A stretch of DNA of 64,000 nucleotides. It comes from Sabulicella rubraurantiaca. GTDB taxonomy: Bacteria; Pseudomonadota; Alphaproteobacteria; Acetobacterales; Acetobacteraceae. Location: NCBI RefSeq assembly GCF_017355885.1, contig NZ_JAFEUU010000001.1, forward strand, positions 682,001 through 746,000. Reading direction: 5' to 3'. Of this stretch, positions 57,569-64,000 are shown piece by piece (within the stretch, counting starts at the first letter, position 1; each line of letters opens with the position of its first letter). The translations under genes and the position numbers were made by a program. The notes beneath the pieces are model-generated. The model did no database searches. It worked only from the letters and a program-made list of their open reading frames with translations, and was not told the DNA's origin.

Positions 57569-58446
57569 CGCTGCGCCTCGCCACCTGTGCCTGGCCGGTC
57601 GAGCCGCTGCCCGACATCGCCGCCTATGCCGTCAAGCTGGAGCACTGGGCACGCCGCGCCCGCGACGCCGGGGCGGAGATGGTGGTCATGCCGGAATATG
57701 CCTGCGTGGAGCTGGGCGCCGCCCTGGCGGGCAACCGTGCGGCCGACGAGGCAACGGAACTTCGCGCCATGGTGCAGGCCGCGCCCGCCGTGCTTGAGGC
57801 GATGCGCGCGGCCGCCCGCGCTGCCGGCATCTGGCTCTGCCCCGGCAGCCTGCCGATGGAACTGCACGGGAAGGTCGTGAACCGCGCACCGCTGATCCGC
57901 CCCGACGGCACCATGGCCTTCCAGGACAAGCGCATGATGACGCGCTTCGAGTCCGAGCGCTGGATGATCGACGCTGGCGCGCCGCCACGCGTCTTTGACA
58001 CGCCCTGGGGAAGGATCGGGATCGCCATCTGCTACGATGCGGAGTTCCCCAAGCTGGTTCGCACCCAGGTCGAGGCAGGTGCGTGGCTCGTCCTCGTGCC
58101 CTCCTGCACCGACACCGCGCATGGATTCAGCCGCGTCCGCATCGGCGCGCGGGCACGCGCGATGGAGAACCAATGCTTCGTTGCCGTTGCGCCCACGGTC
58201 GGCGGCTTCGCCGCCTCGGCCGCGCTGGACGAGAACCACGGCGCGGCCGGCATCTTCGGTCCGGTGGACCGCGGCTTTCCCGCCGATGGCATCCTGGCTC
58301 AAGGGGCGATGGATGAGCCGGGCCTCATCCTTGCCGAACTCGACCCCGAGGCGCTGGAGCGGGTGCGTGTGGATGGCCAGGTGCGGAACCACCGCGACTG
58401 GCCGCGCGCGCCGGTGCCCCACCCCTCCCCGGCCGAATTCGCATGA
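57565..58446 (+). CDS. Carbon-nitrogen hydrolase partner of the GNAT protein
   Basis: Nitrilase-superfamily amidohydrolase of 293 residues with E44, K122 and C156 (MPEYACVE, FQDKRMMTRFE, AICYDAEFP). It is distinct from the Nit1-like protein at 52333. GTG start in the GNAT stop. GNAT plus nitrilase pairs occur in many bacteria and suggest successive acyl-transfer and amide cleavage on one compound. It overlaps the lpxB start by four bases. Confidence 0.88.
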   Translation: MTLRLATCAWPVEPLPDIAAYAVKLEHWARRARDAGAEMVVMPEYACVELGAALAGNRAADEATELRAMVQAAPAVLEAMRAAARAAGIWLCPGSLPMELHGKVVNRAPLIRPDGTMAFQDKRMMTRFESERWMIDAGAPPRVFDTPWGRIGIAICYDAEFPKLVRTQVEAGAWLVLVPSCTDTAHGFSRVRIGARARAMENQCFVAVAPTVGGFAASAALDENHGAAGIFGPVDRGFPADGILAQGAMDEPGLILAELDPEALERVRVDGQVRNHRDWPRAPVPHPSPAEFA

Positions 58447-59543
58447 GCCTCGTCTGGATCGCGGCGGGCGAGGCCTCGGGCGACATCCTCGCCGCACGCC
58501 TCGTCGCCGCTCTGCGGACGCGGGCTCCGGGGCTCCGATTTGCCGGGATCGGCGGGGAGCGCATGGCCGAGCAGGGCGTCGAAAGCCTGTTCCCCATCCG
58601 CGAGCTCGCGCTGATGGGGCTGGTGGAGGTGCTGCCGCAGCTTCGCAACCTCGCACACCGGATGAGCGAGGCGGAGGAGGCGCTGCGCCGCGACCGCCCT
58701 GCCCTGTTGGTGACGGTGGACAGCCCGGGCTTCACCCTGCGCCTCGCGCGGCGAGCCAAGGCCCTGGGCATCCCGGTCGTGCACTATGTGGCGCCGCAGG
58801 TCTGGGCCTGGCGGCCCGGGCGGGTGCGGAAGATGGTGGGCGTGGTGGACCGCATCCTCGCCCTCCTCCCCTTCGAGGCGCCCTTCTTCGAGCAATCCGG
58901 CATCCCGGTGGAATTTGTCGGACACCCGATCCTGGAAAGCGAAGCCGCGCATGGCGACGCTGCGCGCTTCCCGCTGGAAGGTCCAGGCCTGCTCGTCATG
59001 CCGGGCAGCCGGCGCGGCGAGTTGCGCCGCCACCTGCCGGTCTTCAGCTCTGCATTGCCGCCTAGCATCACGCCGGTCGTCGCCCTGGCCGGCACGGTGG
59101 AGGAGGAGGTGCGCGCCGAGACCACCGCCTGGGGCGCACGCTATGTCCGCACCCCTGCCGAGAAGTCGGACGCCATGGCCGCTTGTCATGCCGGGCTGAT
59201 CAAGTCCGGCACCTCCTCGCTGGAGGCGGCGGTGGCGGGGCTGCCGCATGTCGTCGCCTATCGCGTGAACCCGGTCACCGCCGCGATCGTCCGCCGCCTC
59301 ATGCGCGTGCGCCACGCCTCCCTCGTGAACCTCCTCGCCGAGGAGGAGGTGGTGCCCGAGTTCCTGCAGGAACGCTGCGAGCCGAACCTCCTGCGCGCCG
59401 CGCTCCTGCCACTGATCGAGGGCGGAGCCGAGGCAACACGGCAGCGCCGGGGCTTCCATCGCGCGCTGGAGAAGCTGACGCCACCAGGCGGTGGCACCCC
59501 CAGCGAGGCGGCTGCTGAGGCGGTTCTGCGCATGCTATCGTGA
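58443..59543 (+). CDS. lpxB: LpxB, lipid-A-disaccharide synthase
   Basis: LpxB of 366 residues (GT19): AGEASGDILAARLVAAL, GIGGERMAEQGVESLF, YVAPQVWAWRPGRV, LPGSRRGEL-type PGSRRGELRRHLPVF and KSGTSSLEAAVAGLPHVVAYRVNP. It makes the tetraacyldisaccharide of lipid A at the inner membrane. Unusually, it is not next to lpxD-fabZ-lpxA here but continues an operon from a nitrilase and overlaps an ABC exporter ATPase by four bases. Confidence 0.95.
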   Translation: MSLVWIAAGEASGDILAARLVAALRTRAPGLRFAGIGGERMAEQGVESLFPIRELALMGLVEVLPQLRNLAHRMSEAEEALRRDRPALLVTVDSPGFTLRLARRAKALGIPVVHYVAPQVWAWRPGRVRKMVGVVDRILALLPFEAPFFEQSGIPVEFVGHPILESEAAHGDAARFPLEGPGLLVMPGSRRGELRRHLPVFSSALPPSITPVVALAGTVEEEVRAETTAWGARYVRTPAEKSDAMAACHAGLIKSGTSSLEAAVAGLPHVVAYRVNPVTAAIVRRLMRVRHASLVNLLAEEEVVPEFLQERCEPNLLRAALLPLIEGGAEATRQRRGFHRALEKLTPPGGGTPSEAAAEAVLRMLS

Positions 59544-60244
59544 GCACCATGCTCGAGCTTCGCGGCATCACGAGACGCTTCCGCATCGGCCCGACCGAGC
59601 GAACCGTATTGCATGGCATAGACCTCGACCTCGCGGCGGGCGAGCTGGTCTCGATCATGGGTGGCTCCGGCTCCGGCAAGACCACCTTCATGAACATTCT
59701 CGGCCTGCTCGACCGGCCCAGCACCGGCACCTACTGCATACGCGGCGAGGACGTTTTGGCCGCCAAGGCGGATGCCCAGTCGCTGATGCGGAACCGCATG
59801 ATCGGCTTCGTGTTCCAGCAATTCTTCTTGATGCCCCGGCTCAATGCATGGCGGAACGTGGCGCTGCCGCTGATGTATCGCGGCACGCCGGAGGCGGAGG
59901 CGCGGCGGCGGTCGGAGGCGATGCTCCAGCGCGTCGGCCTCGGCCAGCATCTGAGCCACATGCCCAACATGCTTTCCGGCGGGCAGAAGCAGCGCGTCGC
60001 CATCGCACGCGCCCTGGTGACGGAGCCTGCCCTCATCCTCGCCGACGAGCCGACCGGGGCGCTGGACCCGACGGTGAGCCGCGAGATCATGGGGCTGTTC
60101 GAGGAGATGAACCGGGAGCTGGGCGTCCTGGTCGTCATCATCACCCATGACCCGGGCGTGGCCGCGCGCTGCCGGCGGCGCCTCACTCTCGTGCAGGGAC
60201 GCCTGCTGGAGGAGGATGACCTCGCGAAGGCACGGGCGGCATGA
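59540..60244 (+). CDS. ABC exporter ATP-binding protein, MacB/LolD-like
   Basis: ATPase of 234 residues: Walker A GGSGSGKTT, Q-loop VFQQFFLMPRLNA, signature LSGGQKQR, Walker B LILADEPTGALD, THD. The GTG start at 59540 overlaps lpxB; an ATG three codons on (59549) is possible. Serves the FtsX-type permease that follows. Confidence 0.92.
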   Translation: MSTMLELRGITRRFRIGPTERTVLHGIDLDLAAGELVSIMGGSGSGKTTFMNILGLLDRPSTGTYCIRGEDVLAAKADAQSLMRNRMIGFVFQQFFLMPRLNAWRNVALPLMYRGTPEAEARRRSEAMLQRVGLGQHLSHMPNMLSGGQKQRVAIARALVTEPALILADEPTGALDPTVSREIMGLFEEMNRELGVLVVIITHDPGVAARCRRRLTLVQGRLLEEDDLAKARAA

Positions 60245-61413
60245 TCCGCCAGACGCTGATCGAGGCCGCGGGCAACCTGCTCGCCGTGTGGCAGCGCTCG
60301 CTGCTGGCGTTGATCGGCATCGTCGTCGGGGCTGGGGCGGTGATCGCCATGCTCCATGCCGGAGCGATGGCGCGGGAGGAAACGATCCGCCAGTTCCGTC
60401 AGATGGGCACGGACACGATGGTGCTGCGCGCCGACAGCAACACCGGCATGGGCAATTTCCGCCTGGGCGACATCGAGGCCACGCCCGAGGCGGTGCCGCT
60501 GATCCGCGAGATCGCGCCCTTCATGATCGGCGGCGGGACGATCATCTCCGAAGGTCGCTCGCGCAACGCAGGCTTCCTCGGCGTCACGGCGGAATTCGCG
60601 CAGGTCGCCCGCCTGCCGATGGCAGAGGGCCGCTTCCTGTCCCCCTTCGACCGGTTCGAGTTGCTGGTGGTGGTCGGCCACGACCTCGCGCAGCAGCTTT
60701 CCTCGCCCTTCGCGCCGCTACGCGTCGGCAGCCAGATCCGCATCTCCCGCTACGTCTTCACCGTCGCCGGCATCCTGGAGCCGGCGATGATGAACCCCAT
60801 GCTGCCGGTGGACGTGAACACCACGCTGTTCCTTTCGCTGCCCAATGCGAGGCGGGTGATCGCCCTGCCCTCGCTCTCCATGGCAGTGGCGCGTTTGCAG
60901 CCGGATGCCGATCCGGAACTCGCCTCTCAGATGCTGCAGCAGCATCTTGGGCCGGGGCTGCGCGATGCGCGGTTGAACGTCCTGACAGCGCGGCAACTCA
61001 TCGCCGGCATGAACAGTCAGGTCCAGCTCGTTGCCATGCTGCTAGGCGCGGTGGGGTCCATCGCGCTGGTGCTGGGCGGAGTAGGCGTCATGAACATCAT
61101 GCTGATGTCGGTGGCGGAACGGCGGCGCGAGATCGGCATCCGCCTCGCCATCGGGGCACGCCGGCGGGATGTGCGGCGCCTATTCCTTGCCGAGGCATTG
61201 ATCTTGTCCCTGCTAGGCGCGGCGCTCGGGGTCGGGCTGGGATTCCTGGGCGGCATCGGCTTCGCCTGGATGTCGGGCTGGCAGGTCAGCTTCTCGCCCA
61301 TCGCGGCGCCGCTCGGCGCCGGCGTGTCCATTGCCGTGGGAGTCTTCTTCGGCTTCTACCCGGCCGTCATGGCCGCGCGGTTGGATCCGATCGAGGCGCT
61401 GCGGGCGGAGTGA
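60241..61413 (+). CDS. ABC exporter permease, MacB/FtsX type
   Basis: Permease of 390 residues with four membrane helices around a large periplasmic domain, and the FtsX/MacB core VAMLLGAVGSIALVLGGVGVMNIMLMSVAERRREIGIRLAIGARRRDV. This mechanotransmitter fold drives substrate through a MacA-type adaptor and TolC. Overlaps the ATPase by four bases; its 3' end overlaps a minus-strand lipoprotein gene by 47 bases. TolC and a PAS-HlyD adaptor follow. Confidence 0.92.
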   Translation: MIRQTLIEAAGNLLAVWQRSLLALIGIVVGAGAVIAMLHAGAMAREETIRQFRQMGTDTMVLRADSNTGMGNFRLGDIEATPEAVPLIREIAPFMIGGGTIISEGRSRNAGFLGVTAEFAQVARLPMAEGRFLSPFDRFELLVVVGHDLAQQLSSPFAPLRVGSQIRISRYVFTVAGILEPAMMNPMLPVDVNTTLFLSLPNARRVIALPSLSMAVARLQPDADPELASQMLQQHLGPGLRDARLNVLTARQLIAGMNSQVQLVAMLLGAVGSIALVLGGVGVMNIMLMSVAERRREIGIRLAIGARRRDVRRLFLAEALILSLLGAALGVGLGFLGGIGFAWMSGWQVSFSPIAAPLGAGVSIAVGVFFGFYPAVMAARLDPIEALRAE

Positions 61414-61639
61414 CCGCGCCCGGCTCCGCCACCCCGGGCAGGCGGACATGGCTGCGCGGGGCCGTTGCCGCCGGGTCCGGCAGGGCGATGGGCGGGTCGC
61501 CCATGCGCTGCATCACAGCGGGCATCGGGGCGAAAGCCCGCTCGACCGGCGTGTAGCTCGCGCCCCCGATGGGTTCCTGCAGCACGGAGGGCGGGGCGCA
61601 GGCGGCGAGGGCAAGCAGGGCCAGGGAGGCGGATCGCAT
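61367..61639 (-). CDS. Small putative lipoprotein
   Basis: Protein of 90 residues with a lipobox: MRSASLALLALAAC, cysteine 14, so lipidated after signal removal. The mature part is Pro/Ala-rich without known domains. GGAAAGG precedes the ATG. It is convergent with and overlaps the permease gene by 47 bases and sits between exporter genes on the opposite strand. Function unknown; reality of the gene is fairly likely because of the clean lipobox and start. Confidence 0.65.
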   Translation of the reverse strand: MRSASLALLALAACAPPSVLQEPIGGASYTPVERAFAPMPAVMQRMGDPPIALPDPAATAPRSHVRLPGVAEPGAVTPPAAPRSDPTARP

Positions 61640-61739
61640 CGCCCTTTCCTACCTGCGATGAACGGAGCCTGTCAGCGCCGTGGCAATACGCATTTGGGCT
61701 TGCTTGCGGCAGTCCTGTTCTTGGTGGGATAAGCTTTCC

Positions 61740-63227
61740 ATGACGGGGCGTGGTGCATGGGGGGCAGCAATGCTCGCAGGGATTGTCCTGTGGGCCGCGC
61801 CTGCACTCGCGCAGAGCAGCCCTCCCCGACCGAATGGCGCACGGGCAGCGGCTTCCCCGGCGCACCCGCGCGGAACCGTCCCGCTCACCCTGGCCGAGAC
61901 GGTGTTCCTGGCGCTCCGCCACAACCGTTCCATCCAGTCGCAATACATCCAGCGTGTCGCGGACCGCTTCAACCTGCGCGTGGCCGAGGCCACCTTCGCG
62001 CCCCGCTTCGGCATCGAGGGCAGCGTCAGCCATGGCCGCACCGCCGGCGTGACCGGAACGGTCACCACCCTCGGCCCGACGGTGAACCTCACCACCCCGA
62101 TCGGCACGCGCTTCACCTTCGGTTGGCTCGGCATGCAGAGCAACACGCGCGGGCAGAACCCGCTCGCCACCTCCCGTGCGACCTTCCAGGTGGTGCAGCC
62201 GCTGCTGGCCGGGGGCGGCATCGATGTCACCATGGCCCCGGTCCGCGTCGCCCGCATCCAGGAAGTCGGCAGCAAGCTCCAGCTCCGCTCCCTGGTCGCG
62301 GAGCAGGTGACGCAGACCATCCTCGCCTACCGCGCCCTGCTTCAAGCGCAAGAGCAGCTTCGCATTGCGGACGAATCGCTGCGCCGCGCGCGTGACCTCG
62401 CCCAGGTGAACCAGGCTCTGGTCGCGGCGGGCCGGCTGGCCCAGGTGGAGCTGATCCAGGCCGAGACCTCCATCGCGCAGCAAGAGCTTGGTCTCACCAC
62501 AGCGCAGAACCAGCACCAGCAGGCACGGCTGGCGCTGCTGACCCTGCTGGCGGTCAACCAGTCCTCGCCCATCTGGGCGGTGGAACGCCCAGCGGCTGAA
62601 TCGGCGCGCGTGGATGTGCGCCAGGCGCTCGAGGTCGCGACGGCCAACCAGCCCGAATACCTCCGCACGCTGCTCGGCGCGGAGGTGGCGCGCATCAATC
62701 TCGACGTCGCCCGCAACCAGCGCCTGTGGGAGGTGAACGTCGTTGCCGGCACGGGCTACAACGCCCAGCGCGCTGACCTCATTCGCGCGCTGGATGCGCT
62801 GGGCAGCGCCCGATCCGACTTCAATATCGGGCTCCAGCTCAACATCCCCATCGGGCAGATCGCGCGCGAGCAGCCGGAGGTGAACGCCAACGTCGCCATG
62901 CGCCAGACCCAGCTCGGCATCGAAGGGGCGCGCGACCGCCTGCGGCAGCAGGTGGAGGACACGGTCCGCAACATCGACACGCTGCGGCGCCAAGCGGAGC
63001 TGGCACGGCGTGCGCGGGAACTGGCCGCGCAGCAGCTGGAGCTGGAGCTGGTGAAGCTCCAGGCCGGGCGCTCCTCCAACTTCCAGGTCGTGTCCTTCCA
63101 GGGCTACCTGCAATCCGCCGAGAGCGCCGAGCTTTCGGCGGTGATCGCCTATGCAAACGTGCTCACGCAGCTGGACCAGATCCTCGGCACTACCCTCGAC
63201 ACCTGGCAGATCCGCGTGAATGACTGA
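61740..63227 (+). CDS. TolC-family outer-membrane efflux protein
   Basis: TolC-like protein of 495 residues with signal peptide (from ATG 61740, GAWGAAMLAGIVLWAAPALAQ). Two long alpha-helical repeats are visible (LAETVFLALRHNRSIQSQYI...; RARDLAQVNQALVAAGRLAQVELIQAETSIAQQEL; TVRNIDTLRRQAELARRARELAAQQLELELVKLQAGRSSNF). It forms the outer-membrane channel for the MacB-like transporter. A TTG/ATG further upstream would only lengthen the signal. Overlaps the next gene start. Confidence 0.92.
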   Translation: MTGRGAWGAAMLAGIVLWAAPALAQSSPPRPNGARAAASPAHPRGTVPLTLAETVFLALRHNRSIQSQYIQRVADRFNLRVAEATFAPRFGIEGSVSHGRTAGVTGTVTTLGPTVNLTTPIGTRFTFGWLGMQSNTRGQNPLATSRATFQVVQPLLAGGGIDVTMAPVRVARIQEVGSKLQLRSLVAEQVTQTILAYRALLQAQEQLRIADESLRRARDLAQVNQALVAAGRLAQVELIQAETSIAQQELGLTTAQNQHQQARLALLTLLAVNQSSPIWAVERPAAESARVDVRQALEVATANQPEYLRTLLGAEVARINLDVARNQRLWEVNVVAGTGYNAQRADLIRALDALGSARSDFNIGLQLNIPIGQIAREQPEVNANVAMRQTQLGIEGARDRLRQQVEDTVRNIDTLRRQAELARRARELAAQQLELELVKLQAGRSSNFQVVSFQGYLQSAESAELSAVIAYANVLTQLDQILGTTLDTWQIRVND

Positions 63228-64000
63228 GACCGCCGCGCTGGACTACGCCCACCTGCTGGATGCCGTGGCGGATGGGGTGCTGACGGTCGGGCCGGACAGC
63301 CGGATCATGACGCTCAACCCCGCTGGCGCTGCCATGCTGGGGGTGAAGCGCGAGGAAGCCCTCGGCCAGACGCTGGCCTTCGCCCTGGCCGAGCAGGAGG
63401 ATGCGGACGCTTTCCTCGACGCCGTGCTCTGCCCCTTGCAGCCGGAGGCGCCGCAGGGCCGGAGGGTCGTTTCCTTCGGGGACCGGCGGCTTTCCGTGGA
63501 AAGCCGGGTCTGGCGCCCGGAACACGGCCCCTTCGTTGGCCGCCCGGCGCTGACTACCGCCTTCTCCGACGTCACCGAAACAGAGCGCCTTCAGGCGGAG
63601 CTCGCGGAGCAGCACCGGCGCCTTCAGGACGCCTTCGTGGAACTTGAGCGCAAGGCGGAAGCGGAGCGTCGCTTCAGCCGCCGCGTAGGGCTGCTGCGGA
63701 CAGGCGCCATCGCTTCCGTGCTGGCCGCCGTACTGGGCGTTGCGGCCTGGACCTTCCTGTCCCCTGCCGCCGCGCCGGAGGAAATCGCCCTCACGGCGCC
63801 CGGCGGCGTTGTCACCATGGCGGCGCAGGCGCAGCCCGTTGCGCAGCGCATCGCGGTGGTGGGGGCGCTGGAGCCGGGTGCTAATGTGTCCGTCGTCGGG
63901 CCTTATGACGGCACGGTGCGGGAGCGCCTTTTCCGCTACGGCGGCAGCGTGGAGCGCGGCGAGGTCCTGCTCCGCATGGACCGCAACGAGCTGGAATCGC
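63220..64000 (+). CDS. PAS domain-HlyD/MacA membrane-fusion protein (3' end outside window)
   Basis: Fusion read to the window end, 260 residues so far. Residues 8-120 form a PAS domain (LLDAVADGVLTVGPDSRIMTLNPAGAAMLG, FSDVTETERLQAEL), 120-152 a charged coiled-coil, 160-181 one membrane helix (GAIASVLAAVLGVAAWTFL), and from about 205 a periplasmic adaptor start: VAQRIAVVGALEPGANVSVVGPYDGTVRERLFRYGGSVERGEVLLRMD, the HlyD/MacA biotinyl-lipoyl motif. The ATG (63220) overlaps the TolC stop. A cytosolic PAS on an exporter adaptor is unusual. The protein should bridge the ABC permease and TolC while its cytosolic part senses a ligand or redox state. Confidence 0.85.
   Translation, partial: MTETAALDYAHLLDAVADGVLTVGPDSRIMTLNPAGAAMLGVKREEALGQTLAFALAEQEDADAFLDAVLCPLQPEAPQGRRVVSFGDRRLSVESRVWRPEHGPFVGRPALTTAFSDVTETERLQAELAEQHRRLQDAFVELERKAEAERRFSRRVGLLRTGAIASVLAAVLGVAAWTFLSPAAAPEEIALTAPGGVVTMAAQAQPVAQRIAVVGALEPGANVSVVGPYDGTVRERLFRYGGSVERGEVLLRMDRNELES

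Follow-up and report, generated by a model that had tools for sequence, protein, structure and literature searches.

At the end of a 64,000-nucleotide stretch of DNA from Sabulicella rubraurantiaca (G000:C11:682001-746000, the whole stretch analysed, hereafter the window), an open frame appears to join a sensory domain to an exporter adaptor, which raises two questions: is such a protein real, and what would a sensor do in an exporter? The preliminary description, made from the window's letters, had placed a PAS domain, a coiled coil, one membrane helix and a HlyD/MacA adaptor in one polypeptide and had suggested that an intracellular signal could gate the pump.

A PAS domain and an exporter adaptor in one frame

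Followed past 64000 into the surrounding genome (stretch L003), the frame that opens at ATG 63220 encodes 584 residues without internal stop or frameshift, and its stop codon lies at L003:6973-6975, which is 64972-64974 in extended window numbering. An earlier start is impossible because an in-frame stop directly precedes the ATG. The stretch first noticed, 63220..64000, spans the PAS domain, the linker, the membrane helix and only about the first 60 adaptor residues. An artefact of the window's edge is excluded, as are a frameshift and two genes joined by a sequencing error (objections that the preliminary description had raised against itself), by the unbroken frame and by its presence, intact, in 12 of the 21 genus genomes, the window's own included.

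The PAS domain, membrane helix and adaptor of the proposed architecture were borne out by Pfam and hydropathy (Table 1). Three models found the N-terminal domain above their gathering cut-offs: PAS_4 at residues 13-122 (33.3, cut-off 23.1), PAS at 8-79 (30.7, cut-off 22.6) and PAS_8 at 9-66 (24.8, cut-off 21.8); PAS_9 fell below its own (21.6 vs 27). The C-terminal part is a HlyD/MFP adaptor by HlyD_3 at 412-482 (54.8, cut-off 22.2) and by HlyD_D23 (46.9, cut-off 30). It also passes NCBIfam TIGR01730 (107.3, cut-off 94.9), a model whose name says RND, yet the neighbouring genes encode ABC proteins. One 19-residue window, starting at residue 162, reaches a Kyte-Doolittle (KD) value of at least 1.6; since five K/R residues precede the helix and none follows it, the N-terminus should be inside and the PAS domain cytoplasmic. 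Across 11 proteins analysed in the same way, the top window was not the membrane helix in two (L031, L054), and a second window appeared in three others. An AlphaFold model of the Rubritepida flocculans orthologue, made from the single sequence without an alignment, had a mean pLDDT of 47. As the fusion is conserved, we conclude that PAS-HlyD is a real protein type, with its N-terminus inside by sequence.

Table 1. Positions of the exporter genes and of the parts of the sensor-adaptor (window numbering)
Feature	Position	Strand	Evidence
ABC ATPase; nearest NCBIfam model MacB, second LolD, neither reaching its cut-off	59540..60244	+	Pfam, NCBIfam
MacB-like permease (MacB_PCD + FtsX)	60241..61413	+	Pfam, NCBIfam
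TolC-family outer-membrane channel (OEP); GTG start at 61680 also possible	61740..63227	+	Pfam OEP
PAS-coiled coil-TM-HlyD sensor-adaptor gene, 584 aa	63220..64000, on to 64974 in extended window numbering	+	ORF, Pfam
PAS domain, residues 8-122	63241..63585	+	Pfam PAS_4, PAS and PAS_8 above gathering score; kept in orthologues
Coiled-coil-like linker, residues 123-157, motif LQ(D)A(F/Y)xxLE	63586..63690	+	Alignment
Single membrane helix, about residues 162-180, N-terminus predicted inside	63703..63759	+	Hydropathy and charge bias
Start of periplasmic HlyD/MacA-type adaptor, from about residue 200, remainder past the window	63817..64000	+	Pfam, NCBIfam, PDB matches

The adaptor belongs to a four-gene exporter cassette

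The preliminary description also saw a tripartite exporter, with a MacB-like ATPase/permease and TolC just upstream, and Pfam confirmed it, the ATPase and the permease being separate genes. The 3' end of tolC overlaps the start of the sensor-adaptor gene by 8 bases. At genus loci on sufficiently long contigs the order ATPase-permease-tolC-adaptor is retained. In loci of other genera, L056, L058 and L059 carry the ATPase and permease genes on the strand opposite to tolC or to the adaptor pair, and several more distant loci are arranged as tolC-adaptor-ATPase-permease; the four genes are adjacent in all 10 non-family loci examined.

How close is this pump to MacAB-TolC? In the PDB the adaptor part comes closest to putative MacA (4dk0, 4dk1), then to ZneB, then to E. 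coli MacA (9qgy, 5nik). As in MacAB-TolC, a MacB_PCD + FtsX permease and a TolC-family protein are encoded next to the adaptor; unlike in MacAB-TolC, ATPase and permease are separate proteins, and unlike in MacA, a PAS domain (or GAF-PAS) precedes the membrane helix. Because the adaptor does not reach the cut-off of the MacA equivalog NF008606 (27.4 against 342), we call it MacA-type and not MacA. Nor do ATPase and permease reach that of the MacB equivalog NF007826, whose match is split in two (227.9 and 154.8, against 966), and assignment to HlyD of type I secretion was likewise rejected (TIGR01843, 45.8 against 208.65). For TolC-docking adaptors the RLS tip motif is given as RxxxLxxxxxxS (PMC3391258). 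Here the aligned tip reads Q311-xxx-L315-xxxxxx-P322, so that L alone matches, and the full motif is present in none of 22 relatives (R in three, S in one). What the locus encodes is genuine and conserved, a variation on an established type of pump.

For the sensory half the likeness is to other proteins. With PAS or GAF-PAS in the cytoplasm and a coiled-coil-like linker after it, the protein resembles the S-helix-joined PAS/GAF sensor proteins (PMC1592074), but here the output is an exporter adaptor and not a kinase. The S-helix is characterised there by an ERT signature in its central heptad (PMC1592074), and ERT occurs in none of 22 linkers, so we do not assign the linker to that family. 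The PAS domain matches the model of the AtoS kinase (E 3.8e-9), far below that model's cut-off. Its PDB matches are weak, the best being FixL (E 0.015), and this comparison does not support a haem- or flavin-type PAS.

Where the preliminary description held that MacA-type adaptors normally have only a short cytoplasmic tail, it was too general: according to passages of a review, sizable cytoplasmic domains, whose structure is little known, are typical of the adaptors in ABC and MFS pumps (PMC8277102). The nearest printed precedent that we found is a GAF-HlyD-biotin_lipoyl protein of a different machine, the secondary SecA_DEAD loci of Planctomycetes and others, for which the authors propose a regulatory and sensory role (excerpts of PMC4452313). 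It too has a signalling domain and HlyD in one chain. The SecA_DEAD loci differ in encoding SecA_DEAD and peptidase M50 proteins; in those excerpts the authors identified no ABC transporter, and PAS is not mentioned for the GAF-HlyD proteins (PMC4452313). Among the papers listed by our search of a limited library, none showed an ABC tripartite pump with PAS or GAF fused to its adaptor, though domain-architecture databases may well list such proteins.

GAF-PAS is the usual form in the genus

Within the genus sample (21 genomes, the window's own included), 13 gave strong matches, 12 of them intact frames and one interrupted (G011), and seven gave weak matches only, to other adaptors. Named members of the sample are R. 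flocculans DSM 14296 (L017) and Roseococcus sp. MDT2-1-1 (L018). In the genome of the latter (G002), only ATPase and adaptor remnants survive, at two contig ends (L032:6845-8543 and L033:123-491), adjoining lpxB and a downstream aldolase gene.

In 10 of the 12 intact copies the adaptor frame begins at the end of tolC and carries about 130-180 extra N-terminal residues. A GAF model scored above its gathering cut-off of 22.4 in five of the seven extended copies that were scanned (L023, L024, L026, L028, L029) and below it in two (L020, 20.5; L021, 18.9); in L022, L025 and L027 the GAF region was assigned by alignment. R. flocculans, the copy in the window and the interrupted G011 frame have PAS alone, with no GAF. 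Judged from these matches and alignments, the usual genus form is GAF-PAS-linker-TM-adaptor, of which the window copy appears to be a reduced version.

In a tree of the adaptor part (34 rows, root not inferred, so that gain and loss of GAF are not separable by the tree), the GAF-PAS form is scattered through the family clade; the long branches of L080 and L082 join, with unsure placement. On the simplest reading, GAF would have been lost at least twice, in the lineage that leads to the window copy and, independently, in the group around R. flocculans.

Exchangeable sensors on one adaptor lineage

We then asked how far the fusion extends. A first family sample of 249 genomes, with many proteins that matched only in the GAF part left out of the counts, gave six relatives in other genera that match in the adaptor part: GAF-PAS in L054 and L056, PAS in L055, PAS with an incomplete 5' part in L057, a GAF-like stretch only (under the Pfam cut-off) in L059, and a short bare N-terminal tail in L058. 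In a larger family sample, matches at E 1e-60 or better occurred in 22 of 397 genomes and 10 of 102 genera. PAS, judged from translations for the newer matches, is present in 20 of the 22, counting one broken copy (G011) and two that are 5'-incomplete.

Beyond the family, the class sample was searched with a model of the membrane helix and adaptor part alone, which is blind to the sensor. At E 1e-30 it matched in six of 385 genomes. One is the window's own; the other five belong to other families, and by Pfam all five encode PAS-coiled coil-TM-HlyD. The phylum sample matched in 10 of 398: the window's own, one GAF-coiled coil-TM-HlyD protein from another class (G797), and eight sensorless proteins (four scanned with Pfam, the others seen as short N-termini). 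Closer sampling around individual matches gave, for the order of G443, four of 43 genomes, each matching across the PAS columns; for the order of G327, two of 11; and for the class of G797, two of 48, one being the GAF adaptor and one matching in the adaptor part only. Forty plasmid records matched, none covering 80% of the query; among the matches listed (25 of the 40), each starts at residue 177 or later, that is, in the adaptor half only.

PAS before HlyD, an architecture that the preliminary description proposed to seek across genomes, is therefore found in the genus, the family and the class, and the family and class samples exclude a chance or one-off fusion. Since relatives carry PAS, GAF-PAS, GAF or a bare tail, this is an exporter cassette with exchangeable cytoplasmic sensors. 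Cassettes without a sensor exist, so the pump in itself does not require one.

Constraint on the sensor domains and the linker

We compared dN/dS in seven hand-picked close pairs and over all 66 pairs (45 for GAF). In the close pairs the values were 0.038, 0.052, 0.056, 0.083, 0.048, 0.423 and 0.113 for PAS, 0.40, 0.47, 0.44, 0.73, 0.52, 0.19 and 0.74 for GAF in the same order, and 0.093-0.265 for HlyD. PAS is thus strongly constrained in six of the seven and relaxed in L026-L029 (0.423), which is the sole close pair in which GAF is held (0.19). Medians over all pairs were 0.33 for PAS, 0.38 for the linker, 0.33 for the membrane helix, 0.26 for HlyD and 0.52 for GAF; on this measure PAS is above HlyD.

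In the alignment, the linker motif LQxA(F/Y)xxxE occurs both in the PAS forms and in L080, the GAF form, and the aligned linker is absent from the GAF-like form L059 and from the sensorless relatives. The heptad pattern of the linker was modestly better than that of shuffled sequences (151 of 5000 shuffles with 22 rows, 36 of 5000 with 14 rows), a test in which the anchor motif itself fixes some positions.

What the sensor may do

A 2018 review describes the MacAB-TolC pump as a MacB dimer, a MacA hexamer and a TolC trimer, one of each (PMC5985334). It reports that MacA lacking its cytoplasmic region or its N-terminal membrane helix was impaired in stimulating the MacB ATPase in vitro and did not give macrolide resistance in vivo, and that this region could not be seen in the structures of that time (PMC5985334). 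Because these segments are reported to matter for ATPase stimulation, the fused sensor sits at a known control point, and gating by an intracellular signal is plausible.

We propose the following route. The adaptors would assemble as hexamers, as MacA does, with the coiled coil bringing their PAS domains together in pairs. PAS or GAF would bind a small molecule of the cytoplasm (or respond to a redox or energy cue), the coiled coil would change as a result, and this change, passed on through the membrane helix, would alter either the stimulation of the ATPase by the adaptor or the assembly of the pump. Export would then be switched directly by an intracellular signal, with no transcription factor. 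On balance we lean slightly towards this reading, in which the protein would be a MacAB-TolC-like (type VII ABC) exporter adaptor with a kinase-style cytoplasmic sensory module and export would be switched from inside the cell. Its extension to a class of sensor-gated tripartite exporters, with PAS, GAF and GAF-PAS swapped on and off one MacA-type adaptor lineage as a direct, one-protein control that bypasses gene regulation, seems to us evenly poised. Several results speak against gating: the weak PDB matches of the PAS domain, which pointed to no ligand or cofactor; the relaxed PAS in one of the seven close pairs and its median over all pairs, higher than that of HlyD; the sensorless cassettes; L059, which lacks the coiled-coil linker; and the modest heptad pattern of the linker.

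A rather unlikely alternative is that PAS and GAF sense nothing and serve as a ligand-free scaffold for dimerisation or docking, within the adaptor hexamer or between adaptor and ATPase. PAS and GAF domains often dimerise, PAS forms share the linker motif with L080, a GAF form, and the weak PDB matches of the PAS domain revealed no cofactor signature, all consistent with such a role. The scaffold poorly explains why the sensor fold (GAF, PAS or both) is exchanged on one adaptor lineage, and the same four-gene cassette encodes sensorless relatives, which also counts against it.

The signal might instead run inward: the periplasmic adaptor would sense cargo or TolC engagement and report through the membrane helix to PAS/GAF, which would recruit or control a separate partner. 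We regard this as quite improbable, as PAS and GAF act as inputs in the usual signalling proteins and no constant partner gene was present among 10 flanking proteins from seven loci (ORFs from a crude finder). In its favour, a GAF-GAF-GGDEF protein follows one GAF adaptor cassette (L080), and the 2018 review cites a suggestion that MacA signals the presence of substrate in the periplasm to the NBDs in the cytoplasm (PMC5985334).

A fusion that has no role and is neutral or in decay, to which the relaxed GAF (0.40-0.74 in six of seven close pairs), its loss at least twice on the simplest tree reading, the one genome with operon remnants only (G002) and the one pair with relaxed PAS would point, is already disfavoured and very improbable given strong constraint on PAS in the other six pairs and PAS-adaptor fusions in several families of the class.

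If the sensor-gated reading is true, this would be an exporter that a signal inside the cell switches at the level of the protein itself. The 2018 review poses as an open question how the N-terminus of MacA controls the MacB ATPase (PMC5985334). Here a sensory-type domain is fused exactly at the MacA-type control point and sensorless relatives provide natural controls, which makes the coupling route testable.

Other genes at the loci

An opposite-strand ORF of 90 aa (61367-61639, minus strand) lies between permease and tolC, lipoprotein-like by eye and with no Pfam match; it divides the exporter genes into two transcription units, and a counterpart at the same place in eight genus loci has 45-61% identity. 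Upstream, lpxB (58443-59543; Pfam LpxB, 305.6 bits) overlaps the start of the ATPase gene. This neighbourhood is retained in eight other genus loci and at the degraded G002 locus, and no lpxB match turned up in the retrieved loci of other genera. The pump might have a link to lipid A or LPS. In R. flocculans about 1.5 kb without cassette genes (L031:2422-3949) separates permease and tolC. Finally, the GAF-GAF-GGDEF protein of G797 is encoded directly after the GAF-type adaptor cassette (L080:10942-12852) and is a possible signalling partner of that adaptor.
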